A stretch of 34,649 nt of DNA from a bacterium (lineage in GTDB: Bacteria > Zhuqueibacterota > QNDG01 > DTFT01): the NCBI GenBank assembly GCA_016933415.1, contig JAFGAX010000034.1, positions 1 to 34,649 of the forward strand. Direction: 5' to 3'. A program made the translations under genes and the position numbers. Position 1 is the first letter of the stretch, and each line of letters opens with the position of its first letter. A model generated the notes under the pieces. It worked only from the letters and a program-made list of their open reading frames with translations. It was not told where the DNA came from and did no database searches. This document shows, piece by piece, positions 11,014 through 25,601 of the stretch.

Positions 11014-11035
11014 GGTTCTCTCCGTTGCGCTTGAA

Positions 11036-11611
11036 TCAGGGTTGCCTGTTCCCGGCAGGACGCAGGACCGCCAGAAGGCAGTCGACCGCATCCTCGAGCC
11101 GGTCGTTGAATACCAGAAAATCGTACTGTTCGCAATGCGCCATCTCCGTCTCCGCAGCGGCCAGACGCGACTGCACCGCGTCCGGGTGATCCGTTCCCCG
11201 CCGTTCAAGACGCTCGCGCAAGGCGGACAGGGAGGGCGGCAGAAGAAAAATCAGAACCGATCGGGCATAGGACCGCTTCACGTCGAGCGCGCCCTGCACG
11301 TCCAGGTCGAGAATCACACGCGCGCCCGCCTCCACCCAGTCGAGCACCGGTTCCACCGGGGTCCCGTACCGGTTTCCATGAACCTCCGCCCATTCCAGAA
11401 ATCGGCCGCTCCGGATCCGGCGGTCGAATTCCCCCGAATCCAGAAAATAATAATCAACGCCTTCGGTCTCCCCGGGCCGCGGCGGCCGGGTCGTCGCGGA
11501 CACCGAATACCGGAGTGACGGATCACGCCGGAGCACCGCGGACAGAACCGTCGTCTTCCCGCCTCCGGAGGGCGACGACAGGACGAACAGTTTCCCGGCG
11601 CCTCCGTTCAT
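11036..11611 (-). CDS. gmk: Guanylate kinase
   Basis: Gmk phosphorylates GMP to GDP with ATP in nucleotide metabolism. The 191-residue product has the P-loop SSPSGGGKTT (12-21), the GMP-binding segment SVSATTRPPRPGETEGVDYYF (core TTRPPRPGE), FLEWAEVHGNRYGTP, and DLDVQGALDVK. The lid region LERRGTDHPDAVQSRL with its RGTD motif is clear. Length is typical (about 190-205). The ATG at 11611 overlaps the yicC stop as ATGA. The order yicC-gmk-rpoZ-coaBC is a widely conserved cluster. Identification is secure. Confidence 0.97.
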   Translation of the reverse strand: MNGGAGKLFVLSSPSGGGKTTVLSAVLRRDPSLRYSVSATTRPPRPGETEGVDYYFLDSGEFDRRIRSGRFLEWAEVHGNRYGTPVEPVLDWVEAGARVILDLDVQGALDVKRSYARSVLIFLLPPSLSALRERLERRGTDHPDAVQSRLAAAETEMAHCEQYDFLVFNDRLEDAVDCLLAVLRPAGNRQP

Positions 11612-12486
11612 TCCAGATTCTGGGACTGCTCGCGCATTTTCTCGATCTCCTCCTTCATGGCCACGGCGGAGTGGCTGATCTCGGCGTCATTGGCCTTCGA
11701 GCAGATCGTGTTGACCTCCCGGTTCATCTCCTGCAGCAAAAAGGTCAGCTTCTTGCCGACGGCCCGGTCCTCGCCGAGCGTGCGCTCGAAGAGCGCGCAA
11801 TGGCTCCGCATGCGGACGCATTCCTCCGTCACATCCATGCGGTCCGAAAGCAGGGCGATCTCCTGGTGCATGCGGTTCTCGTCGAGATCCTTGTCCTCCG
11901 TCAGCTGACGCACACGGTCGCGCATCCGGCCGTAGATCTCCGGAAGCCGTTGCTTCGACAGGGCCTCCAGGGAATCCACGCCTTCGTACAGTCGGCGTGT
12001 TCGTTCGAGCAGGTCCGCCGCAAGGGCCCCCCCTTCCTGACGGCGCATGGCCTGCAGCCGGTCCAGCGCGGCGGAAACGGCTTTGCGCAAGGTCTCCCAA
12101 AGTGCTTCCGCGGTTTCCGGCTTGCTGTCCGGTTCCAGAATTTCCGTGAACTTCAGGTAATGTTCGAGAGTCAGCTTTTCGCGCAATCCGGCGGCTTTGC
12201 GTAATTCCTGCAATAATAATTGAATGGCCCGGACCTTGGACGCATTGATGCACAATCCGAGATCTTCGGGTTTCTCTCCCTGCAGAGAAACGTTCACATA
12301 AAGTTTGCCCCTGTCAACGGATTTGCGGATCAAATCCTTGATTTCTTTCTCGAAAGGCGTGAGGGACGGAGAGAGGCGGCAGGATATCTCCAGAAACCGG
12401 TTGTTAAAGGATTTGATATCGACCACCACAACAGACTGATTATAATGGACTTCGGATGCTCCAAGCCCGGTCATGCTGGCTGTCAT
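11608..12486 (-). CDS. yicC: YicC family endoribonuclease
   Basis: YicC proteins are RNases reported to promote decay of small RNAs such as RyhB; the Bacillus relative YloC is an endoribonuclease. The 292-residue protein starts with the family signature TASMTGLGASE, has IKSFNNRFLEISCRLS, and ends with the DUF1732 block (RLTSHC-like RMRSHCALFE, GKKLTFLLQEMNREVNTICSKAND, cited by core LLQEMNREVNT). The middle is a long helical region. GGAG sits five bases upstream of the ATG at 12486. It is the first gene after a strong sigma-70 promoter at 12532-12560 and heads the long housekeeping run. Family assignment is very secure; its RNA targets here are unknown. Confidence 0.96.
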   Translation of the reverse strand: MTASMTGLGASEVHYNQSVVVVDIKSFNNRFLEISCRLSPSLTPFEKEIKDLIRKSVDRGKLYVNVSLQGEKPEDLGLCINASKVRAIQLLLQELRKAAGLREKLTLEHYLKFTEILEPDSKPETAEALWETLRKAVSAALDRLQAMRRQEGGALAADLLERTRRLYEGVDSLEALSKQRLPEIYGRMRDRVRQLTEDKDLDENRMHQEIALLSDRMDVTEECVRMRSHCALFERTLGEDRAVGKKLTFLLQEMNREVNTICSKANDAEISHSAVAMKEEIEKMREQSQNLE

Positions 12487-12509
12487 GAAGACTCCAAAAA
12501 GAGACTAAC

Positions 12510-12526
12510 CCTAAAAGAATTTTAGG
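12510..12526 (-). promoter_or_regulatory. 5' leader hairpin of the yicC transcript
   Basis: A perfect 7-bp stem (CCTAAAA/TTTTAGG) with a three-base loop lies at the predicted 5' end of the transcript that starts near 12525. It could protect the RNA from 5' decay or act as a DNA operator. There is no U-tract right after it, so it is not an intrinsic terminator. Confidence 0.5.
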
Positions 12527-12531
12527 TTTAT

Positions 12532-12560
12532 ATTTTACAAAAAAAAATGGAGGATGTCAA
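12532..12560 (-). promoter_or_regulatory. Strong sigma-70-type promoter for the yicC operon
   Basis: The minus strand reads TTGACA at 12560-12555, a 17-base spacer that includes a nine-T run, and TAAAAT at 12537-12532. The -35 is a perfect match, the spacing is ideal and the -10 has five of six bases. The predicted start is near 12525, about 40 bases before the yicC ATG. It lies in an AT-rich gap between the PorV-like gene stop and yicC. Confidence 0.85.
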
Positions 12561-12596
12561 CGGGTTTTTTGTTTGTTTTTAAAAAGGTTATCAGAA

Positions 12597-13646
12597 TTAG
12601 AAGTGGAAGAAATTGTCTTTATCCCAGGTCATGGTGGTTGACAAACGATGACAGTTCCCGAGGTCGTTTTGTCCGGAGAAGCTGTAATCCACGTGAAAAA
12701 CGGAGAATCGCATGCCGGCGCCTGCCGTCATTCGGTCCACGTTGTATCCAACACGCAAAGCGACACGGTCTCGTACGCCCACTTCCAATCCGCCGTGCCA
12801 TTCTCCGTCCATGGAGCCGGAATGAAACGAAGCGGCGTTTCCGATGCCGTCCAGGCCGAATTCAAAATCCGAAACAGGCATGAAACGCAACGGCCCGATC
12901 AAGACCGGCAGTCCGGCTCCGAAACGCAGACGCGGACGGACCCACTCGGTGCGGCCTTCCCGCCAGACGACGGGCGTGGCGGTCGCGTCCTTCAGAACAA
13001 CGCCGAGCTGAACGCCGCGGACCGACCGCCAGAAGAGGCCGATGTCAAATCCCATTCCCCAGGCTGAATAGCGGTCCACGGATTTATGAATTGTCTTGAG
13101 GGTGACGCCCAGCGACATCCGGTCCGAACGCCGCACGGACATCGTGACCGCCAAAGTGAGTTCCTGGTCGTCCACGGACCGCTCCGCATAGGGCACGTTC
13201 AGACGGATATTGCCGTCGGCGTCCGTGATCCATGCGCCGAGCGGCCGAGACGGATCCGTGAGACGCGTGACCGGAATGCCGTCCACGCCCATGCGGTACA
13301 GGCCGACCGCCAGAGCGGTTTTCTCTCCGAACGGCATCCCGCCCGCCAGAAAATCCACATTCACCGCTCCGGCGAACCGTTCCGCGTGCATCCCGTGCAA
13401 CTGGGGACCCGGCATCCAGGCCAGCGCCGCAGGATTCCAGTACACGGCCGTGACATCCAGGGACGCCGCGGCGTTCGCGTTGCCGAGTCCCTCGGCCCTG
13501 GCACCGGCGCCGGCGCGGTAATACTCCATCGCGTACTTGGCGTCATTGCCGCTTCCCGCGTTCAGGAAGGCCGCGGAAACCAGAACGAGGAGCGCCGCTT
13601 CTTTTCGGGCATGGAATGCCGCTCGTATTGATTCAGATGTGGCCAT
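12597..13646 (-). CDS. PorV/UPF0164-like outer membrane beta-barrel protein (second copy)
   Basis: A 349-residue protein with an N-terminal hydrophobic segment (LLVLVSAAFLNAGSG), then RAGAGARAEGLGNANAAASLDVTAVYWNPAA. The GARAxGLGNAxxA...AVYWNPAAL core is the hallmark of the PorV/UPF0164 family. The body is made of regular amphipathic strands (ALAVGLYRMGVDGIPV, GFDIGLFWRSVRGVQLGVVLKD) and ends with an aromatic-rich strand closing in WDKDNFFHF; a terminal Phe is typical of barrels inserted by BamA. Start is uncertain: ATG at 13646, or GTG one codon earlier, with no clear SD. It differs clearly from the relative at 1684-2718 and is not a recent duplicate. The ligand or partner is unknown. Confidence 0.8.
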   Translation of the reverse strand: MATSESIRAAFHARKEAALLVLVSAAFLNAGSGNDAKYAMEYYRAGAGARAEGLGNANAAASLDVTAVYWNPAALAWMPGPQLHGMHAERFAGAVNVDFLAGGMPFGEKTALAVGLYRMGVDGIPVTRLTDPSRPLGAWITDADGNIRLNVPYAERSVDDQELTLAVTMSVRRSDRMSLGVTLKTIHKSVDRYSAWGMGFDIGLFWRSVRGVQLGVVLKDATATPVVWREGRTEWVRPRLRFGAGLPVLIGPLRFMPVSDFEFGLDGIGNAASFHSGSMDGEWHGGLEVGVRDRVALRVGYNVDRMTAGAGMRFSVFHVDYSFSGQNDLGNCHRLSTTMTWDKDNFFHF

Positions 13647-13693
13647 CACGTGGGGAAAGTAATCAACCGCGGGAATAAATGCAAGCGGGTTTT

Positions 13694-13737
13694 TGACGGG
13701 CCGCGTCCGCCGGCCGGATGATCCGGCCGGCCCGTCA
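13694..13737 (-). other. Large nested GC-rich hairpin spanning the stop codon of the REC-PAS-DHp gene
   Basis: Outer arms TGACGGGCC (13694-13702) and GGCCCGTCA (13729-13737) form a 9-bp stem. Inside lies CCGGCCGGAT/ATCCGGCCGG (13710-13719, 13721-13730) around a single base. The TGA stop of the REC-PAS-DHp gene is at the outer arm. No U-run follows, so this is not a classical terminator, although it may block 3' exonucleases or pause polymerase. Confidence 0.6.
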
Positions 13738-14802
13738 GGTGGAGGCTTCGATGTCGAGCATCCGCGTCCCCTTCAGGTATTCCTTGGTGACCGGATGCGA
13801 GATATTGGCGAGTTTCTGCGTGATGTCCCGGATGCGGAGGGCGTTCTTGACGATGACGCGCAGGCGCCTGCGGATATCCTCCTGCGGGAGACGTTCGTCC
13901 TGAAGCAGGAACTGGGCGTTTCCCAGAATGGGCACCAGGGGATTGTTGATCGCGTGGTTGACGGCGACGGCCGTTTCCACCACCGCGGTCACCCGGTCGG
14001 ATTCGTTTTTGTCGTACTCGGCGAATTGACCGGCCCCGATTTCCTTGCAGATGCTCAGCGTGCCCATGGGCTTTCCGGCGCTGTCCTTCATGATCGAGAG
14101 AGACAGATTGACGGGGATCCGCCGGCCGCCCCGCTTCAGAAGGAGAATCTTGTAGTTCTGCACCTTGTTGCGTTTCTTCAGAAGCGCGCTGATCTTCAAC
14201 AGGTCCGCGTTGCCGTTCACCATGAAGGATCCGACCCGTTTCCCCACGATCTCCTCGAAGGGAACGCCGAACAGCTCCTCGGCCGCCCGGTTGCAGTAGG
14301 TGACAACGCCGCGCGTGTTGGTGGTCACAATGGCTTCCGCCGAGCTTTCGACGACCCGCTCGAGAAAATCCTTGGCTTCTCGGATGGTTTCCCAGCAGTT
14401 GACCTCCTCCATCTTCAGCTGGTGGGAGACCATCACATCCTCGACGAATTCGACCAGTTCACTGGCGTTGAAGGGCTTGGAAAGGCAGGCGCTGAAACCG
14501 AGATTGTAGTAATGCGTCCGGTTCCGGATCCCGTTCGGCGTCAGGACGATGAAGGGCACGTCCCGGTTCGCCCTGAAGCGGGGATCCGTGAGGAAGCGCA
14601 TGTAGAATTCCTCTCCGGTCATGTCTTCCAGCTGTCCGTCCACGATGACGACATCCGGTATGCGGACCGCGATGGACGCGAGGCCCGCTTCCCCGTTCCG
14701 GCAGAGCCGGCAGTCGTACAGGCCGTGGTTCAGCGCCGATTCCGCGGTCCGGCGGTACTTTTCGTCGGCGTCAATAAACAGAATTTGCTTCGGATTTTCC
14801 AA
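13735..14802 (-). CDS. Receiver-PAS-DHp protein lacking an ATPase domain
   Basis: This 355-residue signalling protein has a receiver domain at 5-120 (acidic FIDADE, phospho-acceptor D55 in VVIVDGQ, T88, K109 in CLSKPF). A PAS domain follows (about 142-255: AIVTTNTRGVVTYCNRAAEELFG, core TYCNRAAEELFG). Residues 275-335 form a dimerisation helix pair with an H-box, AVNHAINNPLVPILGNAQ (H283). The protein ends at 355, with no HATPase domain and none of its N or G boxes. It therefore cannot autophosphorylate in the usual way; H283 could be phosphorylated in trans or pass phosphate on. The likely start is TTG at 14802, seven bases after the lone receiver gene, with which it forms a two-gene operon behind a sigma-54 promoter. 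Confidence 0.85.
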   Translation of the reverse strand: MENPKQILFIDADEKYRRTAESALNHGLYDCRLCRNGEAGLASIAVRIPDVVIVDGQLEDMTGEEFYMRFLTDPRFRANRDVPFIVLTPNGIRNRTHYYNLGFSACLSKPFNASELVEFVEDVMVSHQLKMEEVNCWETIREAKDFLERVVESSAEAIVTTNTRGVVTYCNRAAEELFGVPFEEIVGKRVGSFMVNGNADLLKISALLKKRNKVQNYKILLLKRGGRRIPVNLSLSIMKDSAGKPMGTLSICKEIGAGQFAEYDKNESDRVTAVVETAVAVNHAINNPLVPILGNAQFLLQDERLPQEDIRRRLRVIVKNALRIRDITQKLANISHPVTKEYLKGTRMLDIEAST

Positions 14803-14809
14803 TCGTCGT

Positions 14810-15178
14810 TTATCCCAGTTTCTGTTCCACGAGATTTTTCAGCGTCGACAGGTCCCAGGGTTTGGAAAGATAGTAGGTGCCGTTCCGTTCATCCTCGCGG
14901 ACCTCGCCGAACCGGACGTCGAAATATCCGGACGTCAGAACGCGAACCGCCTCTGGACGGGTCTCCCGCACCCGATCGAGAAAATCCGATCCGGACGAGT
15001 CGGGCAGTTTCAAATCGCTCAGTATGAAATCGACCGGATGCTGATCGACGATCCGGATGGCGTCGGACGCGCGGGTGGCGGTGTGGAGTTCATATCCCTC
15101 GTCCGAGAAGAAATCGACGAGAATCTCCAGGATGTCCGTCTCATCATCGACGAACAGCAGGCTTCTGGGCTGATGCAT
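14810..15178 (-). CDS. Stand-alone response regulator receiver
   Basis: A single receiver domain of 122 residues with no output domain. The acidic pair is DDE at 11-13, the phospho-acceptor is D55 in FILSDLKLPD, the Thr/Ser switch is T82 in VLTSGY, and K106 is in YLSKPWD. The SKPW form is common in receivers of phosphorelays. GGAGG is six bases upstream of ATG 15178, a strong start. Like CheY, Spo0F or DivK, it can act only by protein contact or by relaying phosphate. The REC-PAS-DHp protein follows seven bases downstream, so the two probably work together. Confidence 0.92.
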   Translation of the reverse strand: MHQPRSLLFVDDETDILEILVDFFSDEGYELHTATRASDAIRIVDQHPVDFILSDLKLPDSSGSDFLDRVRETRPEAVRVLTSGYFDVRFGEVREDERNGTYYLSKPWDLSTLKNLVEQKLG

Positions 15179-15196
15179 CGCGGCCTCCGGGTCGGA

Positions 15197-15213
15197 CGGT
15201 TCCGGCGGAACCG
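15197..15213 (-). promoter_or_regulatory. Leader hairpin 2 of the receiver operon
   Basis: Perfect inverted repeat CGGTTCCG-G-CGGAACCG, folding as a 7-bp stem with a three-base loop. It ends about ten bases before the GGAGG ribosome site of the lone receiver gene, so it could affect translation start. No U-run follows. Confidence 0.55.
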
Positions 15214-15245
15214 GTCCAGTTCGCAGGCCCTGAAGGTGATCCGAG

Positions 15246-15264
15246 CCGGGGAATCGTTCCCCGG
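15246..15264 (-). promoter_or_regulatory. Leader hairpin 1 of the receiver operon
   Basis: Perfect inverted repeat CCGGGGAA-TCG-TTCCCCGG, 8-bp stem with a three-base loop. It lies about 42-60 bases downstream of the predicted sigma-54 start at 15306. It could be a protein-binding operator or an RNA structure; no U-tract argues against termination. Confidence 0.55.
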
Positions 15265-15317
15265 AGTTTGCCCCATTCGTGCGGAACCATCAGGACCTGC
15301 ATATGCTTCGAGAATAC

Positions 15318-15332
15318 GCAAGTACCATGCCA
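15318..15332 (-). promoter_or_regulatory. Sigma-54 (RpoN) promoter for the receiver / REC-PAS-DHp operon
   Basis: Minus-strand TGGCATGGTACTTGC matches the sigma-54 consensus TGGCACG-N4-TTGC with one mismatch (T for C) and the exact GG-to-GC spacing. The predicted start is near 15306, giving a leader of about 128 bases to the ATG at 15178. The sigma-54 activator encoded next door (15658-17028) is the obvious candidate to drive it. Confidence 0.75.
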
Positions 15333-15393
15333 CCAATCACCAAATAGATTATCGTGTTGTTATTCTTATACTTGCAATGGCCTCCAATGTACG

Positions 15394-15411
15394 CATATGA
15401 TATGTCATATG
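15394..15411. promoter_or_regulatory. Palindromic candidate enhancer (UAS) for the sigma-54 promoter
   Basis: CATATGA-TATG-TCATATG is a perfect 7-bp inverted repeat with a four-base spacer. Its centre is about 97 bp upstream of the predicted sigma-54 start, where NtrC-family activators usually bind. The size suits a Fis-type helix-turn-helix dimer. Confidence 0.6.
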
Positions 15412-15582
15412 ATTTCTTTGTCAGGAAAGCTTTTCCGCACCGGGTACCCTTTTCCATGCTCTTACGCGGCCGCTGGAAAACGATCCGAATCCGTTAAAAC
15501 GGTTGATCGGACCGGATCGGTAGATGGATGGCATGAACTCGAGGCTGGAGATCCCGGGATCCGCGGCTGCCGGGTGCCGGAC

Positions 15583-15617
15583 AAAAAAAATCCCCCCCTG
15601 CCGAAGAAGGTGGGGAT
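15583..15617 (-). terminator. Intrinsic terminator after the NtrC-type gene
   Basis: On the minus strand ATCCCC pairs with GGGGAT, with further C-G pairs inside after one mismatch, and eight U residues follow (15590-15583). It lies about 40 bases after the stop at 15658 and would end the kinase operon before the regulatory spacer. Confidence 0.85.
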
Positions 15618-15657
15618 GAACGGAAACGGAATGCGGTCGGCCCGGCCGGGTGTCCGG

Positions 15658-17028
15658 TCAGATGCTGACGCCTTCCTCGCGGTATTCGTTGAGCTTGTTC
15701 CTCAGCGTACGGACGCTGATGCCGAGGAGTTCAGCTGTCCGGGTCCGGTTGTTGTCCGTCTCCTGGAGCGTCTTGAGAATGAGGTTCTTCTCCACATCGC
15801 GCAGGGTTCTCTGTGATCCGGCCGTTTCCGGAGCGGCGTCCGGTGAAACCGCCTCTCCGAAATAGAAATGCTGGACGTTCAGGGTGTCCACGTCCGGACC
15901 GCACATGACGACCGCCCGTTCGATGCAGTTTTCGATCTCGCGGACATTGCCGGGCCAGTCCCTCTGACTGAGGAGCTTCATCGCGGGCTCGGCGATGCCC
16001 TTGATGGGCTTGCTGTTTTCCCCGGCGAAACGCCGGACGAAGTGCTGAACCAGGAGGGGAATGTCCTCCCTCCTTTCGGAAAGCGACGCGAGATAAATGG
16101 GAACCACGTTGAGCCGGTAGAACAGGTCCCCCCGAAAACGGTTTTCCTCGACTTCCCGTTTCAGATCCCGGTTCGTGGTGGCGATGATCCGGACGTCCAC
16201 CGGGATCGGCTTGCCGCCTCCGACGCGCTCGATCTCGCGTTCCTGAAGCACGCGAAGCAGCTTGGCCTGCAGCGGCGGACTGATTTCGCTGATTTCATCG
16301 AGCAGCAGGGTTCCGCCGCTCGCCGTTTCGAAACGGCCCTTGCTCATGCGGTAGGCGCCGGTGAAGGCGCCCTTCTCATGGCCGAAAAGCTCGCTCTCCA
16401 CGAGCCCTTCGGGAAGCGCCGCGCAGTTCGTCGTGATGAACGGGCCGTTTCTCCGGTCGCTGTTGTAATGGATGGCCCGGGCCACGAGTTCCTTGCCGGT
16501 GCCGCTCGCGCCCTGGATCAGCACCGTGGCGCGGCTCTTGGCGACCATCCGGATCGCGTCAAACACCTTCTGCATCGGGTCGCTGCTGCCGACGATATTC
16601 GAGAAGCTGAATTTACGGTCCAGCTCGGAACGGAGATACTCGTTCTCTCCGACCAGGTTCTGGAATTCAAAAAACTTGCCGACGACCATTTCGATCTCGT
16701 CGAGCTCGAAGGGCTTGGTGATGTAGTCGAACGCGCCCTGCTTCATGGCCTTGACGGCGTTCTTGATCGAGCCATAGCCGGTGATGAGAATGACGCCGAG
16801 ATTCGGGTTCTCCTTCTTCGCCTCGGCCAGTACCTTCATGCCGCTGATATCCGGCAGTCGCAGGTCGGTGATGACCAGGTCATACGGATGGCCGGAAAGC
16901 TGGCTGAGCGCCTCTTTGCCCGTGGCCACGACGTCGACGTCATATCCTTTCCGCTGGAAGGTCTCCTTCAGAAGATCGCGGATCATCTCCTCGTCGTCCA
17001 CGACAAAAATGCGTTTCCCCGTTTGCAT
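15658..17028 (-). CDS. NtrC-family sigma-54-dependent response regulator
   Basis: A 456-residue bacterial enhancer-binding protein. The N-terminal receiver (1-120) has DDEE at 11-14, phospho-acceptor D55 in VITDLRLPD and K105 in YITKPF. The AAA+ domain (about 142-370) has Walker A GASGTGKE (173-180), the sigma-54 contact loop GAFTGA (220-225) and Walker B GGTLLLDE (238-245). The C-terminal Fis-type helix-turn-helix (about 408-450) reads NNRTRTAELLGISVRTLRNKL, core RTAELLGISVRTL. All key residues are intact, so it should activate RpoN promoters when D55 is phosphorylated. ATG 17028 starts two bases after the preceding HPt-like gene. A sigma-54 promoter and a palindrome lie just downstream of its terminator. 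Confidence 0.96.
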   Translation of the reverse strand: MQTGKRIFVVDDEEMIRDLLKETFQRKGYDVDVVATGKEALSQLSGHPYDLVITDLRLPDISGMKVLAEAKKENPNLGVILITGYGSIKNAVKAMKQGAFDYITKPFELDEIEMVVGKFFEFQNLVGENEYLRSELDRKFSFSNIVGSSDPMQKVFDAIRMVAKSRATVLIQGASGTGKELVARAIHYNSDRRNGPFITTNCAALPEGLVESELFGHEKGAFTGAYRMSKGRFETASGGTLLLDEISEISPPLQAKLLRVLQEREIERVGGGKPIPVDVRIIATTNRDLKREVEENRFRGDLFYRLNVVPIYLASLSERREDIPLLVQHFVRRFAGENSKPIKGIAEPAMKLLSQRDWPGNVREIENCIERAVVMCGPDVDTLNVQHFYFGEAVSPDAAPETAGSQRTLRDVEKNLILKTLQETDNNRTRTAELLGISVRTLRNKLNEYREEGVSI

Positions 17029-17030
17029 GA

Positions 17031-17741
17031 TCAGATCTCCCGCTTGATTTGAAGGAGCAGACACCGGGACCGCGGATCCGGCGCTTCCATCTTCAGCCGC
17101 CCCCCGAGCAGACGGCACAGTCGATCGGCCACGGCCAGTGAAATCCGCGCCTCCACCGGCTGGGCGTTCCTCAGGAGTTCGCTGATCCGGTCCGAGCGGT
17201 TCTCCGGCAGTCCGTTTTCGGGAAGCTCGTACCGGATGGTGACGGCCGCCGGCCTTCCGTCCGGCGCGGAGACGGTCAGGGCCCAGACCGTCTCGGCCGT
17301 CTGGCAAGTGAAATCCAGCAGATGGAAAAGCGTATCATCCAGGACGTCCGGATCGCCCGTCACCCGGACTTTCTGCGCTTTCCGGATTTTTTCCGGAAAA
17401 TCAACACCGGCCGTCCGTCCGCTCAGTCCGGTAACCCGGCCGGCGGCCGCGGCGAGCCGGTCTGTCAGTTCGATTTTCTCCCTGCGGAGTTCGGGCGTCC
17501 GGAACAGCTTCATCAGCCGGACGAACATCTCGTCCACCTGATCCACGCCCGACTGGATGCGCTGGACGTAACGCAGACGGGGATCGTCCTCCGGAAGCTC
17601 CTTCTGAAGAAGGTCGGCGAAACCGTGAATGCCGCCGAGCTTGTTTTTCAGCCGGTGAACCACATCGCCCATGAAACAGGCGAAAGCGTCATCTCGGTTC
17701 GCGGATCGGACCGGCAAACGGCGGCGCGACGGCTGTACCAC
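17031..17741 (-). CDS. Histidine-kinase-like protein with degenerate ATPase domain (ChpT/Spo0B-like phosphotransferase candidate)
   Basis: The 236-residue protein has a DHp hairpin with a good H-box, VVHRLKNKLGGIHGFADLL (H29), paired with a second helix ending near RLMKLF. A domain of kinase-ATPase size follows (about 90-235), starting ELTDRLAAAAGRV. Its ATP motifs are lost: the N-box position reads LFHLLDFTCQTAE without the Asn, the G1 DxGxG is replaced by ELPENGLPEN, and no GxGxGL is present, although a relic of the last helix-strand (ADRLCRLLGGRLKME) remains. Intact His with dead ATPase is the architecture of ChpT and Spo0B histidine phosphotransferases. GTG 17741 has GAGGGGGG just upstream. 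It sits between a hybrid kinase and the NtrC-type regulator, as a relay protein would. A divergent kinase is the alternative. Confidence 0.8.
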   Translation of the reverse strand: MVQPSRRRLPVRSANRDDAFACFMGDVVHRLKNKLGGIHGFADLLQKELPEDDPRLRYVQRIQSGVDQVDEMFVRLMKLFRTPELRREKIELTDRLAAAAGRVTGLSGRTAGVDFPEKIRKAQKVRVTGDPDVLDDTLFHLLDFTCQTAETVWALTVSAPDGRPAAVTIRYELPENGLPENRSDRISELLRNAQPVEARISLAVADRLCRLLGGRLKMEAPDPRSRCLLLQIKREI

Positions 17742-17751
17742 GATACCCCCC

Positions 17752-20202
17752 TCAGGCGTTCAAAGCGTTCTGAATTCCCTGAATCAGCGGCCGCACATGG
17801 AACGGTTTCAGGACGAATCCCTGCACCTGATCCCGGAGCGCCCGTTCGGCGGCTTCGCGTTCCCCCGGCCAGACCGAGGCCAGAATCCGGAGCTGGGGAT
17901 GCATCTGCGCCAGTCCGTCGAGCATTGCACCCGGCTGTGTGCCGTCCCAGATCATCAGGTCGATGCGCCGTCGTCCGCTCCGGAGAATCTCCTGGGCCTC
18001 ACGGCCGTCCGCAACCGCCAGAACCTGGTATCCGTACCGGTGAAGCATTTTTCTTCCAGTGTCGCGCAGGGCGGTTTCGGTCTCCACCAGGAGGACGTTT
18101 TCCCGGCCGCCTTTCAGGGTTCCGGATTTCGGCGCCGCCGGTTTGGCCGCCTGTTCGGTCACGGCCGGCAGATGGATTTTCACCACAGTCCCCTTGTTCC
18201 GTTCGCTGAAGACGGACACGAAACCCCGGTGCGATTCAACCGCAGTCCGGATCATCACAAGGCCCGATTCTCCTTCCGGCGGTGTCTCTCCGGCCGCTTC
18301 GCTCAGCTGTCGTTTCCGTTCACCGCTCATGCCCGAGCCGGTATCGCTGATGATGATCTGGATGTAAGCGCCCGGCCGCGCGCCGGGCCTGGAGCGGAGA
18401 TCGCTCTCGTTCAGCGTGCAGTTCCGTGTCTGAAAAACGATTTTTCCGCCGTTCGGCATGGCCTCCCTGGCGTTGACGGCCGCCTCGAGTATCGCCTGTT
18501 GGACGCGGACCGCGTCCGCGCGGATGCGGTACAGATACGGGTCCAGTTCAGCCCGTATCAGAAGTTCACGGGAATAGACCTTGGACAGAATGCCGGCGAC
18601 CTCGTTGACCAGGGGATTGACGTCCAGGTCCCGGACCTCATAGGGCGTGCCGTTGGCGAAGGCCAGCAGACGGGAAGCCAGGGCGGAGGAATTCTCCGCT
18701 GTGGCGAGTATCTGTTTCAGGTCCTGAAAGGCCGGATTGGTCCGGGGGATCGCTTCTCCGAGCATGGAGGCGTAGCCCAGGATGCAGGCCAGATGGTTGT
18801 TGAAATCGAGGACAATGCCGCCGGCCAGAAATCCAAGCAGTTCCATGCGCTTTGCGAGAAAGGCCTGCCGGCGGCCGTCATCGGGTTCCGGAGAGTCGAT
18901 CCAGTACCAGGTTTCATCCCCCTTCTTCGTTCGGGGAATGCGGCCGGGAAATCCGAGCGCGTGCCGGACCGGTCCCCCGTCGATTGCGGGTTTCACGCGG
19001 ACCGGTTCAGCCGTCTCTGAATCCGTCATCCCCCCGGCAATGGAGCGGTTGTCCGGATGAAAAAGTTCGGCAAGGGTTTTACCCGCCAGCGCTTCCGCGC
19101 CGCATCCAAGAAACCGTTCCATCCACGGATTCCATCTCCGGACCGCTCCGCCCCGGAGTTCCAGGATGCCGAGAAACGGAACATCGGGAAGAACCGTCTC
19201 CGATTCCGGAACGGCTTCCTGTTGGGACTCGGGCCTGCCGTCCGCTGTCCGGAACAGAGCGTTCATCAGGGTTCCGATGCACGAGGCGTCAGGAACGCTG
19301 AAGAAACCCGCCCTCCTGTCCGCGAGGATGAGGAAACGGGACGCATCCGATCCGGTCACCGGAAAGACGGCGAGAGAAGCATAATTGCCGAACGGCTCCG
19401 TAAACGGCCTGACGGACGGAACCGCGCTTTCAGTCGGTTGGGGGGAAGATTTGGGAGAGGCCTCTGAAGACGGTTCAACCCCGTCGAGCCGGATCACCAT
19501 TGCGCCGGTTTCGGTCGCTTCACAGGCCGGGTTGGCCGACAATCCCGCCATGAACCGCATCCAGGTCTGGGGCGCCCATCTCCGGAAATCGGAATCCTCG
19601 GATCCGGACTGGAATCCCGTCCACTTGCCGAAGCATTGGCATCTTCCGCCGGATTTCATCTCCGACCATCCGATGCCGTCGCATCCGACGGATTCCCGAA
19701 TCTGCTCGAGAAGCGGTTTCAGATCGATGGACCGGCCGGATTCCCGGTCCAGTGAGCCGAGCAGTCGAATCGAACATTCCGCGATGGATCGGGCGCGAAA
19801 CTCGGCGGAAATGTCCTTCAAGGTGATCCGGAGACCGGGCTCCTCATCCGAGGCTCCGGTCGGGGAAATCCCGCTGAGAAGAAACGGAACCGCATGGCGC
19901 ATTGAATCTTCGAGAAAAACAGGAATATCGCGTATATACCCCCTTCGAACGCAGAGTTCCAGGGAAGCGGCGATCCTGTTGCGGGTATCGGGGGTCACAA
20001 AATTAAGGAAAGATTTGCCGGTCAGATCAACGACGTCCCGTTCGAGAAAGGTTTCAACCGAACTGTTGCAGGAGAATATATTGAAATGGGAATCAAGTAG
20101 TAGATAGCCGATACCGGATTTTGAGTAGATTTTATCGTATGGGACAGGAGTCCCGGAGGCAACATAAATATCTGTTTTAATGTTGTTTAAGGTAGGATTC
20201 AT
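17752..20202 (-). CDS. PAS hybrid histidine kinase homologue lacking the phospho-acceptor His (pseudokinase candidate)
   Basis: This 816-residue protein has an N-terminal PAS domain (about 25-135), a GAF-like region (about 140-320), a second PAS-like segment (about 338-440), a DHp (450-515), an ATPase domain (525-680) and a C-terminal receiver (700-816). The H-box reads GGIVLDFNNHLACILGYAS, where its neighbour at 20294-22795 has GGIAHDFNNLL: the acceptor His is Leu (L465). The N-box (AAVNAREAMPNGG) and G1 (SDTGSGM) remain, but the G2 loop is ESGLVMI in place of GxGLGL. The receiver keeps D753 and K799, while its acidic pair is Glu-Glu (ETE). No membrane helices are seen. It probably regulates the sister kinase or receives phosphate in trans. 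The gene looks intact and not decaying. Confidence 0.88.
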   Translation of the reverse strand: MNPTLNNIKTDIYVASGTPVPYDKIYSKSGIGYLLLDSHFNIFSCNSSVETFLERDVVDLTGKSFLNFVTPDTRNRIAASLELCVRRGYIRDIPVFLEDSMRHAVPFLLSGISPTGASDEEPGLRITLKDISAEFRARSIAECSIRLLGSLDRESGRSIDLKPLLEQIRESVGCDGIGWSEMKSGGRCQCFGKWTGFQSGSEDSDFRRWAPQTWMRFMAGLSANPACEATETGAMVIRLDGVEPSSEASPKSSPQPTESAVPSVRPFTEPFGNYASLAVFPVTGSDASRFLILADRRAGFFSVPDASCIGTLMNALFRTADGRPESQQEAVPESETVLPDVPFLGILELRGGAVRRWNPWMERFLGCGAEALAGKTLAELFHPDNRSIAGGMTDSETAEPVRVKPAIDGGPVRHALGFPGRIPRTKKGDETWYWIDSPEPDDGRRQAFLAKRMELLGFLAGGIVLDFNNHLACILGYASMLGEAIPRTNPAFQDLKQILATAENSSALASRLLAFANGTPYEVRDLDVNPLVNEVAGILSKVYSRELLIRAELDPYLYRIRADAVRVQQAILEAAVNAREAMPNGGKIVFQTRNCTLNESDLRSRPGARPGAYIQIIISDTGSGMSGERKRQLSEAAGETPPEGESGLVMIRTAVESHRGFVSVFSERNKGTVVKIHLPAVTEQAAKPAAPKSGTLKGGRENVLLVETETALRDTGRKMLHRYGYQVLAVADGREAQEILRSGRRRIDLMIWDGTQPGAMLDGLAQMHPQLRILASVWPGEREAAERALRDQVQGFVLKPFHVRPLIQGIQNALNA

Positions 20203-20286
20203 GGCAACGGACAGAAGTATCCCTGTTTTTCATCCTTCTCAACGGACAGCCGCACTGGTCATGATATTTAACACTATATACTAACA

Positions 20287-20301
20287 GCAAATATTATTCC
20301 A
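20287..20301 (-). promoter_or_regulatory. Possible sigma-54 promoter for the pseudokinase gene
   Basis: Minus-strand TGGAATAATATTTGC keeps GG and GC at the exact sigma-54 spacing and a perfect TTGCT at -12, but the -24 element is weak (TGGAA). It overlaps the stop codon of the upstream kinase. The predicted start is near 20275, 73 bases before the ATG at 20202. Confidence 0.35.
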
Positions 20302-22795
20302 GTTTTCGGCCGGATTTTCGGGTGCCATTGTCCAACGCCGACTTGATGGTCTGATACAGGATCTCCGTATGAAAGGGTTTCTGCAGAAAATGAACTTCGG
20401 TCCCATCCATCAGATCGGGACGGTCATGGGGACCATAGCCGCTTGTGAATACAATACGAACTTTGGGATTGATTTTCTTCAACTCCCGGTAGGCTTCCTT
20501 GCCGTCCATTTCGGGCATGACCAGATCGAGGAGCACAACCGCGATATCATCCTTCATCCGGTTGTACATCTCAACCGCCTCCTTCCCGTTGCGCGCGAGA
20601 AGAACCTCGAATCCCTTCTTCCGAAGCATCCGGTCGCCCACATGCCGGATGATCTCCTCGTCATCCACGAGAAGGACCTTGTTGGAAACGACCGGCGGAG
20701 CCGGTTTTTCGGCTTCCGGTTCGGCCTGGATGTATCTCGGGAAGAACAGGGAAAGCACCGTGCCCCTTCCCAGCTCGCTCTGGACCTGAATGGCACCGTT
20801 GTGATTCTTGACAATGCCGTAAACCATGGAAAGTCCCAGGCCCTTCCGTTCATTGGCCGGTTTCGTTGTGAAAAACGGCTCAAAGATACGGGACTTGGTC
20901 CGCTCATCCATGCCCACACCCGTGTCGTTGAAACGGATCAGGGCGTAATCTCCCGTCTTGATTCCGACCTGCGTCTCCGGAGATTTCTCGTCGATATAAA
21001 CGTTTTCGGTCGTGATGATGATGCGCCCGCCGCCGGGCATGGCATCCACGGAGTTGAGCAGGATGTTGACGAATGTCTGGTGAATCTGACGCGAATCGCC
21101 ACGCACCGGCCACAGGTCCTCCGAAAGACGCGTTTCGAATTCGATGGACGGATCGACGGAATGCCGCAGAATGCCGACCACGTCCTCCGCGATTTTGTTG
21201 ATCCGGAGCGTCGAGACCTGGTACTTGCCTCCACGCGCGAAAGCCAGAAGGCGGTTCGTGAGATCCGCCGCTTTTTTCGCGGTTTCCGCGATGGCCAGCA
21301 GGTCCTGGTAGTAGGGATGGTCCTCCTTCATTTCAGTGAGAAGCAGGGAGGCGTACCCGAGAATGCCGCCGAGCAGATTGTTGAAGTCGTGCGCAATGCC
21401 GCCCGCGAGCGTGCCGATGGATTCCATCTTCTGGGTTTCCAGAAGCTGGCTTTCCCACAATTTGCGCTGGGAAATGTCCAGCACGTTGCCCATGACGGAC
21501 GGTTTCCCCTCGATCTCGATCCGGCGGCAGTGTATTTCGCACCAGCAGCGCGACCCGTCCTGCCGGATATAGCGCACCTGGTAGTGCTCCTCCACGGGCT
21601 CGCCCATCTCCCGGCGCGTTTCCCGGAGCGTGACCATGCTGCGCTCCTCCGGATCGATCCGGTCGAAATAATTGGTCCCGGCGAGCGTCTCCGGTGAATG
21701 CTGGAGAATCTCGGCGAAACGGGTGTTCGCGAAACGCACCGTCCCCTGCTGGATGATGAAGACGCCCACCAGAGACGATTCCACGAGCAGGCGGTACTTC
21801 TCCCGCTCCTCCCGGAGGCCCGCTTCCAGATGCTTCCGCACCGAGACATCGCGGATGAAGCTCTGGACGGCCTCCTTCCCCATGAAACGGACTTTCCGGC
21901 TGTTCACCTCCGCGTCGAACCGGGACCCGTCCTTGCGCGTGAGAAGCGCCTCGACGGGTGATGTTTGATCGTTCCTCAGCGTCCTGACGAAGGAGAGCGA
22001 AAGGGGCTCCACGAACCGTTCATCGGCCAGACGCGGCCAGCCGAGGCTCAGCAGTTCCCTGCGCTCGTATCCGAACAGGCGGCAGGAGGCACGGTTGGTT
22101 TCCAGAATGCGTCCGTCCCGGTCATGAACGACCACGCCGTCGTTGTTGCCTTCAAACAGGGCGTGGTACTGCAGTTCGCGTTCCAGGAGCTTCTTCGTGC
22201 CGTCTTCGATACGCTTCTCGATGTGTTCTGCCCAATCGTTGAGCTCGAGATCCTTCTGCTGAAGTTCGTTGTAGAGTCCGTGGTTGTGAAGGGCCAGCGT
22301 CAGAAGGGGACCGGCGTATTCGATCAGATCGAGCAGGCGGGATTCGTCCCCGAGATCCGAGGGATTCACCAGGATCAGCACGTGGGCCGAATCCTCCCGC
22401 ACGTGGAACGGATGGATGAGAAGACTCCGACAGCGCAGGGACCAGAACCGTTGTTCCAGGCCGGGATCTTCCGACAGATCCGTCAGCGACAGGATTTTCA
22501 TTTCGTCCTGCGCGCGGCGGCTTACGGTTTCGATGAGATCGGCGGGAAGGATCGATGGTTCATGTTCCGGAGCGGAATACGGGATTTCCCACCGGCTGTC
22601 GCCGGCATGGTGTGAGACGATCAACGCCTGGTCGCACAGGCTGCGCTTCTGTATTTCCCCGAGCAGGTGGGATACGCGTTTGGCGGGGTGCAGGGATCGG
22701 GCCAGAACATCGGAATGTCTGAGCCAGTCTCCGAAGGACGGTGTTTCCCTTCCGGGAATCCTCTCCCTTCTGTTTTTCTTGCGAAGCCAACTCAC
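20294..22795 (-). CDS. Soluble hybrid sensor histidine kinase, GAF-like/PAS-PAS-HisKA-HATPase-REC
   Basis: An 833-residue hybrid kinase with all catalytic motifs. An N-terminal GAF-like region (about 35-175) and a helix (175-208) precede two PAS domains (about 208-320 and 330-445). The DHp H-box is GGIAHDFNNLL (H469). The ATPase has N-box LLNSVDAMPGGG (N581), G1 NDTGVGM, F-box FEPFFTTK and G2 KGLGLSM. The C-terminal receiver (705-825) has DDE, D757 in VVLLDLVMPEMDG and K806 in FLQKPF. There are no membrane helices, so it senses cytoplasmic signals. The start is GTG at 22795, with no good SD. It is the first gene of the signalling cluster and the only one able to autophosphorylate by sequence, so it is the likely phosphate entry point. 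Confidence 0.95.
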   Translation of the reverse strand: MSWLRKKNRRERIPGRETPSFGDWLRHSDVLARSLHPAKRVSHLLGEIQKRSLCDQALIVSHHAGDSRWEIPYSAPEHEPSILPADLIETVSRRAQDEMKILSLTDLSEDPGLEQRFWSLRCRSLLIHPFHVREDSAHVLILVNPSDLGDESRLLDLIEYAGPLLTLALHNHGLYNELQQKDLELNDWAEHIEKRIEDGTKKLLERELQYHALFEGNNDGVVVHDRDGRILETNRASCRLFGYERRELLSLGWPRLADERFVEPLSLSFVRTLRNDQTSPVEALLTRKDGSRFDAEVNSRKVRFMGKEAVQSFIRDVSVRKHLEAGLREEREKYRLLVESSLVGVFIIQQGTVRFANTRFAEILQHSPETLAGTNYFDRIDPEERSMVTLRETRREMGEPVEEHYQVRYIRQDGSRCWCEIHCRRIEIEGKPSVMGNVLDISQRKLWESQLLETQKMESIGTLAGGIAHDFNNLLGGILGYASLLLTEMKEDHPYYQDLLAIAETAKKAADLTNRLLAFARGGKYQVSTLRINKIAEDVVGILRHSVDPSIEFETRLSEDLWPVRGDSRQIHQTFVNILLNSVDAMPGGGRIIITTENVYIDEKSPETQVGIKTGDYALIRFNDTGVGMDERTKSRIFEPFFTTKPANERKGLGLSMVYGIVKNHNGAIQVQSELGRGTVLSLFFPRYIQAEPEAEKPAPPVVSNKVLLVDDEEIIRHVGDRMLRKKGFEVLLARNGKEAVEMYNRMKDDIAVVLLDLVMPEMDGKEAYRELKKINPKVRIVFTSGYGPHDRPDLMDGTEVHFLQKPFHTEILYQTIKSALDNGTRKSGRKLE

Positions 22796-22952: not shown

Positions 22953-23486
22953 TCAAATAACCGTTTCCCCGGTTTTTCGGAAGGATTGAACGATGCGGTA
23001 CAGGAGCATCCGGATCCCCGAAACGATGAGAAAAAAAGGACCGAAATACCGGACCGCCGCATCCAGTCCTGCCGGCGCATCCATGAAGGATTCGGATGCG
23101 GCCATCAGGCCTATGTAAAGGAGCAAACCCGATGGAATGAGCAGACCCGGTTGTCCGGGGCGGATGAGAAAGAGCAGAAAAAACGAAAGTCCGAATGCGA
23201 AGAGGAATACGGGCCAGTATTCATCCGCGTCGATCCTGGCGATGATTCCGTAATTCCTCAAGAGGAAAAAAATGCCGGTCTGGAGAAGAAACACACTCCA
23301 GAAAAGAGAGGATGATCCGCTCCGCCGGAGGGCGTCAAAGAGCAGAATGACCGAAACAACGATCAGAAATACCGGCAGGAGCCGCTCGGAAAGACCCGGG
23401 GCGCAGTCGAACTGCCTGAACAGGAGCCACGAACCGGTCAGGATGAAAAGCAGTCCCGGTATCACGGATGTTTTCTTCGGTTTCAT
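22953..23486 (-). CDS. Small multi-pass membrane protein (LiaF/DUF5668-like)
   Basis: A 177-residue protein made almost wholly of hydrophobic segments: about 9-22, 36-50, 60-78, 91-106, 112-128 and 142-160, each separated by short charged turns. The first, IPGLLFILTGSWLLFRQF, resembles the G-x-x-x-I-x-x-G-x-x-x-L repeats of the DUF5668/LiaF transmembrane region. No catalytic motif is visible. I chose ATG 23486 because GGAGG lies eight bases upstream; an ATG five codons earlier is inside that SD. It begins 31 bases after the double-PspC gene, in the same operon. LiaF and PspC relatives act in envelope-stress sensing, so a shared membrane-stress role is a reasonable inference. Confidence 0.75.
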   Translation of the reverse strand: MKPKKTSVIPGLLFILTGSWLLFRQFDCAPGLSERLLPVFLIVVSVILLFDALRRSGSSSLFWSVFLLQTGIFFLLRNYGIIARIDADEYWPVFLFAFGLSFFLLFLIRPGQPGLLIPSGLLLYIGLMAASESFMDAPAGLDAAVRYFGPFFLIVSGIRMLLYRIVQSFRKTGETVI

Positions 23487-23516
23487 ACCGAAATCCTCCA
23501 TATGGCGTCCGTAACG

Positions 23517-24191
23517 TCAGCTTTTTTCCGGGATGACAATCCAGAGACAGAGGTAGAAAAGAACACCCGGAATCAAAGCGGTCATCATCGTGAACAGCAC
23601 AGCCAGAAGCCGGACCAGCGTCGGATCGATGCGGAATCGATCCGCCACTGCCCCGCATACGCCGGCAATCATGCGGTTGGAAGGGGACCGGAACAGAGCC
23701 GGTCGGAAACCGCCTCCCGTCCGGTCCGGTTTCCGGGTCTCTCCGCTTCCAGGCAGACTGCGGATCCACAAACCGATGCCGGTCAGGATGATCAGAAGCG
23801 GAAAGAGGAGGCGGAACGGAAGCGGCCGCCAGCCCCAGAAACCGCCGAACGGCCCGCCCCACCAGTCCCAATGATCCGATACCCATCCGGAGAGCAGAAG
23901 AAGACCCATGCCGACCAGGAGGAATCCCCACACGGACCCGGCGGAATGAACCATCCGGGACGATTCCTTTTTCCCGGATGCATCACGGGGTATGACCGTC
24001 AGAGCGATGATATACATAAGGGCCGTCCAGCCGCTGACAAAGGTCAGGAAAACGCAGGCCAACCGGACCGCCGCGGACGGAACATCCAGCGCGGCGGCGA
24101 TTCCGCCGCAGACACCGCCGAGCATGCGGTCGTTCCCGGAACGGACAAGACGCCGGATCGGCGCTTTTTGATGATCGGATTTCGCAGTCAT
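23517..24191 (-). CDS. Membrane protein with two PspC domains
   Basis: PspC domains occur in membrane proteins of the phage-shock envelope-stress response. This 224-residue protein has one at each end. The first (about 12-69) reads RMLGGVCGGIAAALDVPSAAVRLACVF, core GGVCGGIAAALDV, and ends ALTVIPRD. The second (about 166-223) reads RMIAGVCGAVADRFRIDPTLVRLL, core AGVCGAVADRFRIDP, and ends WIVIPEKS. Between them lie two helices (about 88-101 and 127-143) split by a Trp/Gly-rich turn, WDWWGGPFGGFWGW. AGGTG lies just upstream of ATG 24191. No pspA or pspF is in the window. The next gene encodes a LiaF/DUF5668-like membrane protein, and the histidine kinase cluster follows. Confidence 0.9.
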   Translation of the reverse strand: MTAKSDHQKAPIRRLVRSGNDRMLGGVCGGIAAALDVPSAAVRLACVFLTFVSGWTALMYIIALTVIPRDASGKKESSRMVHSAGSVWGFLLVGMGLLLLSGWVSDHWDWWGGPFGGFWGWRPLPFRLLFPLLIILTGIGLWIRSLPGSGETRKPDRTGGGFRPALFRSPSNRMIAGVCGAVADRFRIDPTLVRLLAVLFTMMTALIPGVLFYLCLWIVIPEKS

Positions 24192-24288
24192 GAGGCACCT
24201 CGCATTCGGTTTTGAGCGTCTTCACTCTCATGATACGGATGCGGTGCGTTCTTGTTTCGCGGGATCCGGAGCCGGCGGTTCGGCAGGC

Positions 24289-24930
24289 TTATCCGCCTGT
24301 CATGCGTACGAACCGAACGGGCATCAGCGTTTCTCGGCGGATGGTCCCTTCCCCCTTTTCCAAAAACACGAGGTCCTGCCGCGTCAGCCCCACCGGCACG
24401 ATCATTCGGCCGCCTTCGGCCAGCTGTTCCAGAAGCACTTCCGGAATCCGGTCCGGAGCGGCGGTCACGCAGATCGCGTTAAAAGGCGCCTCCGAAGGCC
24501 ACCCCTCGCTCCCGTCTCCGGTCCGGAAGCGGATGGCGGCATACCCGAGCAGACCGAGTGTCACCCGGGCTTTTTCCGCGAGTACGGGAAGGATCTCCAC
24601 CGTATGGACAGACGCCCCGAGTTCGGCCAGAACGGCCGTCTGATATCCGGAGCCGGTTCCGATTTCCAGAACCCGGTCGCCGGTCCGGATCCGGAGCGCC
24701 TCAGTCATGGCCGCCACGATATACGGCTGTGAAATGGTCTGTCCCTCCCCGATGGGGAGCGGATCATCCGCGTAGGCGGACGACTGCAGGGAGGCGGGGA
24801 CGAAACAATGACGCGGCACTTCGGTCATCGCCAGCAGGACGCGCTCGTCCCGAACGCCCCTGGCGCGCATCTGGTCGCGGACCATCCTTTCCCGCTCACG
24901 CCTCCGCTCATTCCGCAGGACGATCGTCAT
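24289..24930 (-). CDS. pcm: Protein-L-isoaspartate O-methyltransferase
   Basis: Pcm uses S-adenosylmethionine to methylate isoaspartyl residues in damaged proteins, starting their repair. The 213-residue product has the family opening RERMVRDQMRARGVRDERVLLAM, core MVRDQMRARGV, then VPRHCFVP, the substrate loop PLPIGEGQTISQPYIVA, and SAM motif I VLEIGTGSGYQTAVLA (87-102). RIPEVLLEQLAEGGRMIVPVG near the C-terminus, core LAEGGRMIVPVG, is also diagnostic. Length is typical. ATG 24930 overlaps the stop of the TrmH-type gene as ATGA, so the two are coupled. Very secure. Confidence 0.96.
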   Translation of the reverse strand: MTIVLRNERRRERERMVRDQMRARGVRDERVLLAMTEVPRHCFVPASLQSSAYADDPLPIGEGQTISQPYIVAAMTEALRIRTGDRVLEIGTGSGYQTAVLAELGASVHTVEILPVLAEKARVTLGLLGYAAIRFRTGDGSEGWPSEAPFNAICVTAAPDRIPEVLLEQLAEGGRMIVPVGLTRQDLVFLEKGEGTIRRETLMPVRFVRMTGG

Positions 24931-25499
24931 GCGGGACCGTGCTCGTGCGACCGGGGCAGACCGCTGTAAAATTCCCAGTGCTGACGCTGAATTTCGTGTA
25001 GAACGACGCCGAATGCGACGGCCACATTGATCGAATTCTTGAACCCGAACATGGGGATTTCGATGATGTCGTCCGCCAGGTCAAGCGCCTCCCGGGATAC
25101 GCCCAGGGCCTCGTTTCCGACCACGAGCGCGGCGGGAAGGGCGACGGCGCGTTCCCAGAGAACACCGCTCCGGTCCGTGGTCTCCAGTGCGACGATGCGA
25201 CGGCCGGCGTCCCGCAGTTCCCGGATGGCGGCGGCGGGTTCCGGCCGATGCTCCCATGGAATGAACGGAATGGTGCCGAGTGCGGTTTTCTCCAGCTTTT
25301 TGTTCGGCGGGTGCGCGGTGATGCCGCAGGTGACGATCTTTTCGACCAGGGCGCAGTCCGCGGTGCGGAATATGGATCCAACATTGAACGCGCTCCGCAG
25401 GTTGTCCAGAACGACCGTGACCGGGAGCCGGGGAATTTCTCGGAAGGCCTCGGGAGAAAGCCGCGCATCGAGGGATCGGACGTGAAATCGGGTTTCCAT
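24927..25499 (-). CDS. TrmH/SpoU-family RNA 2'-O-methyltransferase
   Basis: SPOUT enzymes methylate ribose 2'-OH in tRNA or rRNA using S-adenosylmethionine bound in a trefoil knot. The 190-residue product shows motif 1 DNLRSAFNVGSIFRTAD, motif 2 LVVGNEALGVS, and motif 3 IPMFGFKNSINVAVAFGVVLHE, cited by core GFKNSINVAVAFG. There is no N-terminal substrate-binding extension, so it is a short form, and its RNA target cannot be named. ATG 25499 is taken as the start; longer in-frame reading would run into the tRNA terminator hairpin. It sits just downstream of two tRNA-Lys genes, which is suggestive but not evidence of a target, and overlaps pcm. Confidence 0.92.
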   Translation of the reverse strand: METRFHVRSLDARLSPEAFREIPRLPVTVVLDNLRSAFNVGSIFRTADCALVEKIVTCGITAHPPNKKLEKTALGTIPFIPWEHRPEPAAAIRELRDAGRRIVALETTDRSGVLWERAVALPAALVVGNEALGVSREALDLADDIIEIPMFGFKNSINVAVAFGVVLHEIQRQHWEFYSGLPRSHEHGPA

Positions 25500-25591: not shown

Positions 25592-25601
25592 CTGTCATCC
25601 G

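Follow-up and report, generated by a model that had tools for sequence, protein, structure and literature searches.

A conserved six-gene locus: a probable phosphorelay whose last member is a sigma-54 activator with its own target operon

Described systems and the locus

In Caulobacter, the CckA-ChpT-CtrA/CpdR relay carries phosphate from a hybrid histidine kinase to a kinase-derived phosphotransferase and from there to a DNA-binding regulator. ChpT has the fold of a kinase, is unable to use ATP, and acts as a dimeric phosphotransferase (PMC3433190), and DivL is a catalytically dead kinase in the CckA pathway (PMC4211667). Here we describe six genes, named F, E, D, C, B and A in their order of transcription, which seem to bring together similar parts: the hybrid kinases F and E, the reduced kinase D, the NtrC-type activator C, the lone receiver B, and A, which has a receiver, a PAS domain and a dimerization and histidine-phosphotransfer (DHp) domain. 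They lie on the minus strand at 13735-22795 of contig JAFGAX010000034.1 (assembly GCA_016933415.1; GTDB lineage Bacteria; Zhuqueibacterota; QNDG01; DTFT01), which comes from a metagenome-assembled genome of 2.7 Mb that is 76% complete. The whole stretch analysed, 34,649 nucleotides, is called the window. With a probability of about 0.6, we think that the locus encodes a conserved phosphorelay, the last protein of which is a sigma-54 activator that serves a dedicated operon.

As in the CckA relay, a hybrid kinase, a phosphotransferase derived from a kinase with a dead catalytic and ATP-binding (CA) fold, and a DNA-binding regulator would act in series, and a lone receiver and a dead kinase are at hand in both systems. 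However, D is nearest to NtrB/ZraS-type kinases, and nine D proteins gave no Pfam match to the ChpT family domain at E <= 1. The regulator is of the NtrC type (REC-AAA+-HTH_8) and sigma-54 dependent, not of the OmpR type as CtrA is. All genes of the module are clustered, its lone receiver is a predicted transcriptional target, and A has no counterpart in the CckA relay. The best NCBIfam model for F is CckA, but the score is 358 bits against a cutoff of 1000, and B reaches 39 bits against the CpdR cutoff of 180. These measures place the module outside the CckA-ChpT-CtrA family, although on paper it works like the CckA relay.

C is an NtrC-family activator like those of the NtrB-NtrC, AtoS-AtoC and ZraS-ZraR pairs, and D seems to be derived from the same class of kinase. 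In contrast to these pairs, D has lost both the sensor and ATP binding, and the input must therefore come from the hybrid kinases. The scores of C are below the curated equivalog cutoffs (AtoC, 515 against 714 bits; ZraR, 432 against 760; NtrC, 431 against 559). A dual-role kinase-like phosphotransferase and a lone receiver also occur in one pathway in PhyT-SdrG-PhyR of Sphingomonas (PMC5898713). That pathway uses other protein families and another order of steps, and leads to a regulator of an alternative sigma factor (EcfG). In the Spo0F-Spo0B-Spo0A relay, the dimeric phosphotransferase is of the DHp type and has a degenerate CA domain. D resembles it in this respect but has no Spo0B-type Pfam match, and the module begins at hybrid kinases and ends at a sigma-54 activator. 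The Spo0B dimer is noted in PMC3433190. We found no published description of this gene set in the open-access literature.

Conservation of the set and reduction of its kinases

Homologues of D were sought in 59 relatives; their gene neighbourhoods were retrieved and searched by tblastn with all six proteins, and a profile search with A brought in genome G003 and, for G005 and G010, the B-A pairs. By tblastn, the identical set in the identical order was seen in every relative of the order that has a clear D homologue. Of the 12 genomes of this uncultured bacterial order, 11, from five families, carry the module or the parts visible on the available contigs; it was not found in the remaining one, G006. 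An initial annotation of the window had read the locus as a phosphorelay and named conserved gene order as a check; the order is indeed conserved. All six genes are on a single contig in five genomes (the window, L021, L025, L026 and L028), D is adjacent to C in 9 loci and B to A in 10, and in family f5 the B-A pair is located away from F-E-D-C. Outside the genus, the tblastn identity is 22-34% for D, about 30-34% for E and 68-73% for C; the low values of D and E indicate that the set has been conserved over a long term. Since the set recurs across five families, the clustering of the six genes is more than chance. The ratio of nonsynonymous to synonymous substitution rates (dN/dS) is 0.03-0.13 for A, B, C, D and F. 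In L025, one extra metabolic gene (7386-9014, 542 aa) lies between E and D, and by eye its N-terminus resembles 2-isopropylmalate or citramalate synthase.

The positions of the open reading frames and the Pfam domains agree with the six same-strand signalling genes of the initial annotation, and its residue numbers are right (H469 and D757 of F, H29 of D, D55 of C, D55 of B, and D55 and H283 of A). It had called the genes consecutive. They are all present on one strand, but they are not a single gap-free operon, because a gap of 479 bp between C and B holds a promoter and an enhancer. The reading frame of C that reaches 17307 is an artefact, and the gene is as given in Table 1.

F has H469, N581, D624, G652 and D757, that is, the intact His, ATPase and receiver Asp of a hybrid kinase that can head a phosphorelay. 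The His, the ATP boxes and the receiver Asp are invariant in 7 relatives, and the dN/dS of F against the sister species is 0.05. F is the sole complete kinase among the six, so the view that it alone is competent for autophosphorylation holds for this window, and phosphate probably enters the module at F as had been proposed.

The second hybrid kinase is different in the window. In E, L465 replaces the His, the G2 box is lost and the acidic pair of the receiver is replaced (VETE for VDDE), whereas N577, D620 and the receiver D753 are retained. Outside the genus, the His is present in all 7 covered relatives (GGIVHDFNN, GGIIHDFNN, GGMVHDFNN and similar); the E of L025 has Gln in place of the receiver Asp. 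In the sister-species E (L020, L110) the His position falls inside an assembly gap. The dN/dS of E is 0.11 in the C-terminal part and 0.29 in the sensor part, and E is still under purifying selection. Because the His is kept in all covered relatives outside the genus, these alignments mark the pseudokinase as a recent, lineage-specific state and not the plan of the system. Thus the split of catalytic roles described at first holds in the window but is partly local, and the loss of the His in E cannot be kept as an element of design.

In D, only 11 columns are invariant, including H29, K32, N33 (H+4), GGI and D130; the H+1 residue is basic, and the motif is H-R/K-x-K-N. H29 of D and D55 of C are invariant in all orthologues. 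Pfam finds no HATPase_c in 8 of the 9 D orthologues, and in the remaining one there is a HATPase_c match at E 0.25. The AlphaFold2 model of D (mean predicted local distance difference test, pLDDT, 80.7) consists of a HisKA hairpin and a CA-like domain, the nearest solved structures are the cytoplasmic parts of ZraS, GacS, RetS and CpxA, and a profile search with D ranks ZraS first. By sequence only, D is thus the separate His phosphotransfer protein without kinase activity that a phosphorelay contains, in agreement with the initial annotation, which had D as kinase-dead with its phospho-His retained. D and C are not a canonical two-component pair, as D has no HATPase_c and hence no working ATP-binding domain.

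The origin of D can be considered from other families of the phylum. There, C homologues (46-58% identity) are immediately preceded by full-length PAS-HisKA-HATPase kinases that are relatives of D (L139, L146, L136), and in family f13 the C homologue follows a PAS-HisKA protein without a HATPase match (L140 9422-10792, L143 8073-9401). In f13, ATP binding seems to have been lost a second time, though to a lesser degree, and this kinase stands as an intermediate. With both full-length and HATPase-less kinases beside C homologues, D is most simply explained as the former NtrB-type cognate kinase of C, which would have been reduced stepwise to a phosphotransfer protein by loss of PAS and ATP binding.

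C itself has the domains of the NtrC family, namely a receiver with D55, an AAA+ domain with GAFTGA and a Fis-type helix-turn-helix, and the C proteins across the order form a single clade with support 100/100. On its domains, C is the terminal DNA-binding response regulator.

Promoters, the tandem enhancer and the B-A pair

Sigma-54 sites were scored with an approximate matrix composed from the published consensus and not fitted. In the C-B gap, TGGCATG-GTAC-TTGC fits the -24/-12 consensus, and 11 of 11 genomes have a sigma-54 site upstream of B. Between F and E, 8 of 8 loci have a further sigma-54-like site, of the TGGAAY-N5-TTTGC type. Comparison with shuffled gaps gave P <= 0.015 at the ten C-B sites included and P <= 0.003 at the F-E sites; the C-B site of L023, which had scored 15.2 in the first scan, was left out of this test.

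The B promoter is preceded by two palindromic boxes of the GGSAAA-N-TTTSCC type, 19-21 bp apart. The centre of the proximal box is 109-112 bp from the G of the -12 element in 11 of 11 genomes, including L025, whose box is degenerate and at the same distance. In L072 and L073 (f5), in which B-A is away from C, the boxes and the promoter still precede B; these two loci were excluded when the enhancer motif was built. Thus all 11 B promoters are sigma-54 promoters with an upstream enhancer at a conserved distance. This is the arrangement expected for an NtrC-type activator, and C would be the obvious candidate. A genome-wide scan for the tandem enhancer, limited to 20-bp spacing, gave matches beyond the B promoter at about the control rate. 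B-A therefore looks like a dedicated target, and a wide regulon of C was rejected on the same result.

Two other enhancer candidates were rejected. The palindrome CATATGACATATCATATG in the C-B gap occurs in the genus only, and the enhancer-like site within E (20007) is explained by conserved GK.F codons. Weaker sigma-54-like sites (TGGCAYGATTTA[AG]GC) were seen upstream of D, in the E-D gap, in four genomes (L021, L024, L026 and L028). In G000 and the sister genome, sigma-54-like sites also stand before very large secreted proteins (L100:666-3263, L103:661-6033, L108:796-7018, L109:2616-6821, L111:511-6861); three of the four checked match a type IX sorting tail, one of these three below the cutoff, and G000 has 71 sorting-tail matches in total.

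Of the two proteins encoded behind this promoter, B has a D55 that is invariant among orthologues. A comparison of 27 homologues of A, taken from the order and from further families of the phylum, shows no variation at H283 and N287 and marks the absence of an ATP domain as the ancestral condition. The motif of A in the order is H-A-I-N-N, with Ala at H+1 in 9 of 10 genomes; homologues outside the order mostly have Glu at H+1 and an intact receiver. Within the order, Asn or Glu takes the place of Asp55 in the receiver of 3 out of 10 genomes, so that the receiver of A does not stand as the conserved phosphate acceptor it was first taken for. In HisKA proteins, an acidic H+1 residue is needed for kinase activity and Thr or Asn at H+4 for phosphatase activity (PMC3510030). 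Judging from these residues, A cannot be a kinase, having no ATP domain and, in most of the order, no acidic H+1. Because A and D both lack the acidic H+1 in the order yet keep Asn at H+4, we tentatively read A, at somewhat less than even odds, as a kinase-dead phosphatase or phosphotransferase on receivers, i.e. as induced feedback. The C-terminal tail of A, HPVTKEYLKGTRMLDIEAST (residues 336-355; window 13738-13797), hardly varies within the order, and its pattern (Y.G...MLDI..S) can be recognised throughout the phylum.

In other families, A-like REC-PAS-DHp genes are located in flagellar clusters (L084:5194-9743, L089:6783-11246, L081:9319-18710, L075:2420-10051). Their contexts are fliA, a GAF protein, the A-like gene and flgA; or flgF/G, flgI and flgK; or motA/motB. 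In family f12, a C homologue is located upstream.

Table 1. Positions of the six genes and their predicted regulatory sites in the window
Feature	Position	Strand	Description
F	20294..22795	-	Hybrid histidine kinase, PAS-PAS-HisKA-HATPase_c-REC (Pfam, NCBIfam, residue alignment)
E	17752..20202	-	Second hybrid, PAS-PAS-HATPase-REC, no HisKA match (Pfam); predicted pseudokinase in the genus of the window
D	17031..17741	-	DHp protein, degenerate CA fold, HisKA only (Pfam); proposed phosphotransferase, possibly phosphatase, for C
C	15658..17028	-	NtrC-type sigma-54 activator, REC-Sigma54_activat-HTH_8 (Pfam)
B	14810..15178	-	Lone receiver, REC (Pfam); D55, T82, K106 (KPWD type)
A	13735..14802	-	REC-PAS-HisKA (Pfam), without CA domain; conserved C-terminal tail HPVTKEYLKGTRMLDIEAST
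Sigma-54-like promoter for E-D-C	20286..20301	-	TGGAATAATATTTGCT; overlaps the stop codon of F
Distal enhancer box of tandem pair	15443..15455	-	GGAAAAGGGTACC
Proximal enhancer box	15424..15436	-	GGAAAAGCTTTCC; centre 111 bp from the -12 G
Sigma-54 promoter for B-A	15317..15332	-	TGGCATGGTACTTGCG

Upstream of F (window 22953-25598) there are conserved LiaF-like, PspC, Pcm and SpoU methylase genes, and at 25601-25781 a pair of tRNA-Lys genes side by side (anticodons CTT and TTT). Downstream of A (5054-13649) there are conserved PorV-like, YicC, CoaBC, DnaB and RelA/SpoT genes. A connection to the type IX secretion system through the PorV-like neighbour was dropped, because PorV follows A in families f1, f3 and f5 but not in f2 and f4.

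Proposed course of the relay and its alternatives

We infer every phosphotransfer step and the direction of the phosphate flow as follows. F would autophosphorylate at H469 and then pass the phosphate to its own receiver at D757, D would accept it on H29 from the receiver of F, and D would give it to D55 of C. In relatives, an E with the His would also autophosphorylate and feed its own receiver; that is, E would have been a second input kinase in the ancestor and a regulatory pseudokinase in the genus of the window. Phospho-C on the tandem enhancer, together with sigma-54 RNA polymerase, would cause transcription of B-A. The sigma-54 site upstream of E points to sigma-54 raising E-D-C as well, and through this site phospho-C may activate its own operon. 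B and A would form a second, induced layer which probably feeds back, and A would most likely take phosphate from receivers such as B or C, or dephosphorylate them. A second layer had been proposed at first as phosphate transfer from C to B and A. The layer is supported as a transcriptional one by the sigma-54 promoter and the tandem enhancer, but the transfer found no positive support.

A wider form of this relay is possible, though we hold it rather doubtful: the module may be a closed signalling-to-signalling circuit, in which the only detectable dedicated target is a further phosphotransfer pair. A would then belong to a phylum-wide CA-less REC-PAS-DHp family of stand-alone phosphatases or phosphate sinks, and the module would have arisen from a kinase stripped to a phosphotransferase under hybrid kinases.

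Several points weigh against the relay and its target operon as proposed. We infer C to be the enhancer-binding protein from adjacency and co-conservation, and the assignment stays at that strength because the genome has 17 matches to the sigma-54-activator domain. Control of E-D-C by C is weakly supported, since the E promoter has no recognisable enhancer pair upstream. B may be the partner of A, as a candidate pairing only, and the AlphaFold model of A (pLDDT 66.5 overall) is poor in the DHp part and was not used. Finally, D retains the phosphatase Asn and could act solely as a phosphatase.

The last point leads to an alternative without a relay, in which F (and E in relatives) phosphorylates C directly, or another kinase does so, and the role of D is confined to that of a phosphatase or adaptor for C. 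Besides the Asn at H+4 and the absence of an acidic H+1 in D, it is favoured by the finding that the DHp domain alone is enough for phosphatase activity in NtrB and EnvZ (PMC3510030). However, the phospho-His of D never varies, although the protein has so few other invariant columns, and each of the two hybrid kinases has a receiver at its C-terminus, which is the usual donor for a D-like protein (PMC9981736), so we regard this alternative as unlikely. Decay of the cluster, with E and D as pseudogenes being lost, would agree with the absence of the His, the G2 box and the receiver pocket in E and of ATP binding in D. It is highly improbable in view of the low dN/dS of A, B, C, D, F and the C-terminal part of E, the open frames, and the retention of D in every family despite its degeneration.

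We give equally little credit to the module being a homologue of the alphaproteobacterial CckA-DivL-ChpT-CtrA/CpdR network. Its components correspond roughly to those of that network (a hybrid kinase, a pseudokinase, a kinase-derived phosphotransferase, a DNA-binding regulator and a lone receiver), and CckA is the best NCBIfam model for F, but the scores under the cutoffs, the D without the ChpT family and the AAA+ activator in place of CtrA speak against it. Moreover, the loss of the His in E is restricted to one genus and the replacement is Leu, not Tyr, and the idea survives only as an analogy. A role as the flagellar regulator of the lineage is very unlikely, too. It is suggested by the A-like proteins in flagellar operons elsewhere in the phylum and by C homologues near fliA, flgA or flgBC. 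In this order, by contrast, flagellar rod proteins occur in 3 of 12 genomes against 11 for the module, and the flagellated members have a separate flagellar activator-kinase pair of another clade. As 9 of 12 genomes are without rod genes and the flagellated ones have their own activator, a flagellar function in this order was rejected.

Taken together, the preferred reading, a relay ending in C with B-A as its target, brings with it a conserved class of proteins, REC-PAS-DHp without an ATP domain, and a promoter-enhancer spacing fixed to within 3 bp over five families. Clear examples of a simple two-part sensor turned into a relay are rare, and the module appears to be one. Accounts of how a kinase-regulator pair becomes a multi-step relay usually rest on distant examples. 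In this single phylum, C has as its neighbour an intact kinase in some members, a kinase with an unrecognisable ATP domain in others, and in others still a bare phosphotransferase under hybrid kinases. Therefore the steps by which a relay originates can be rebuilt and tested.

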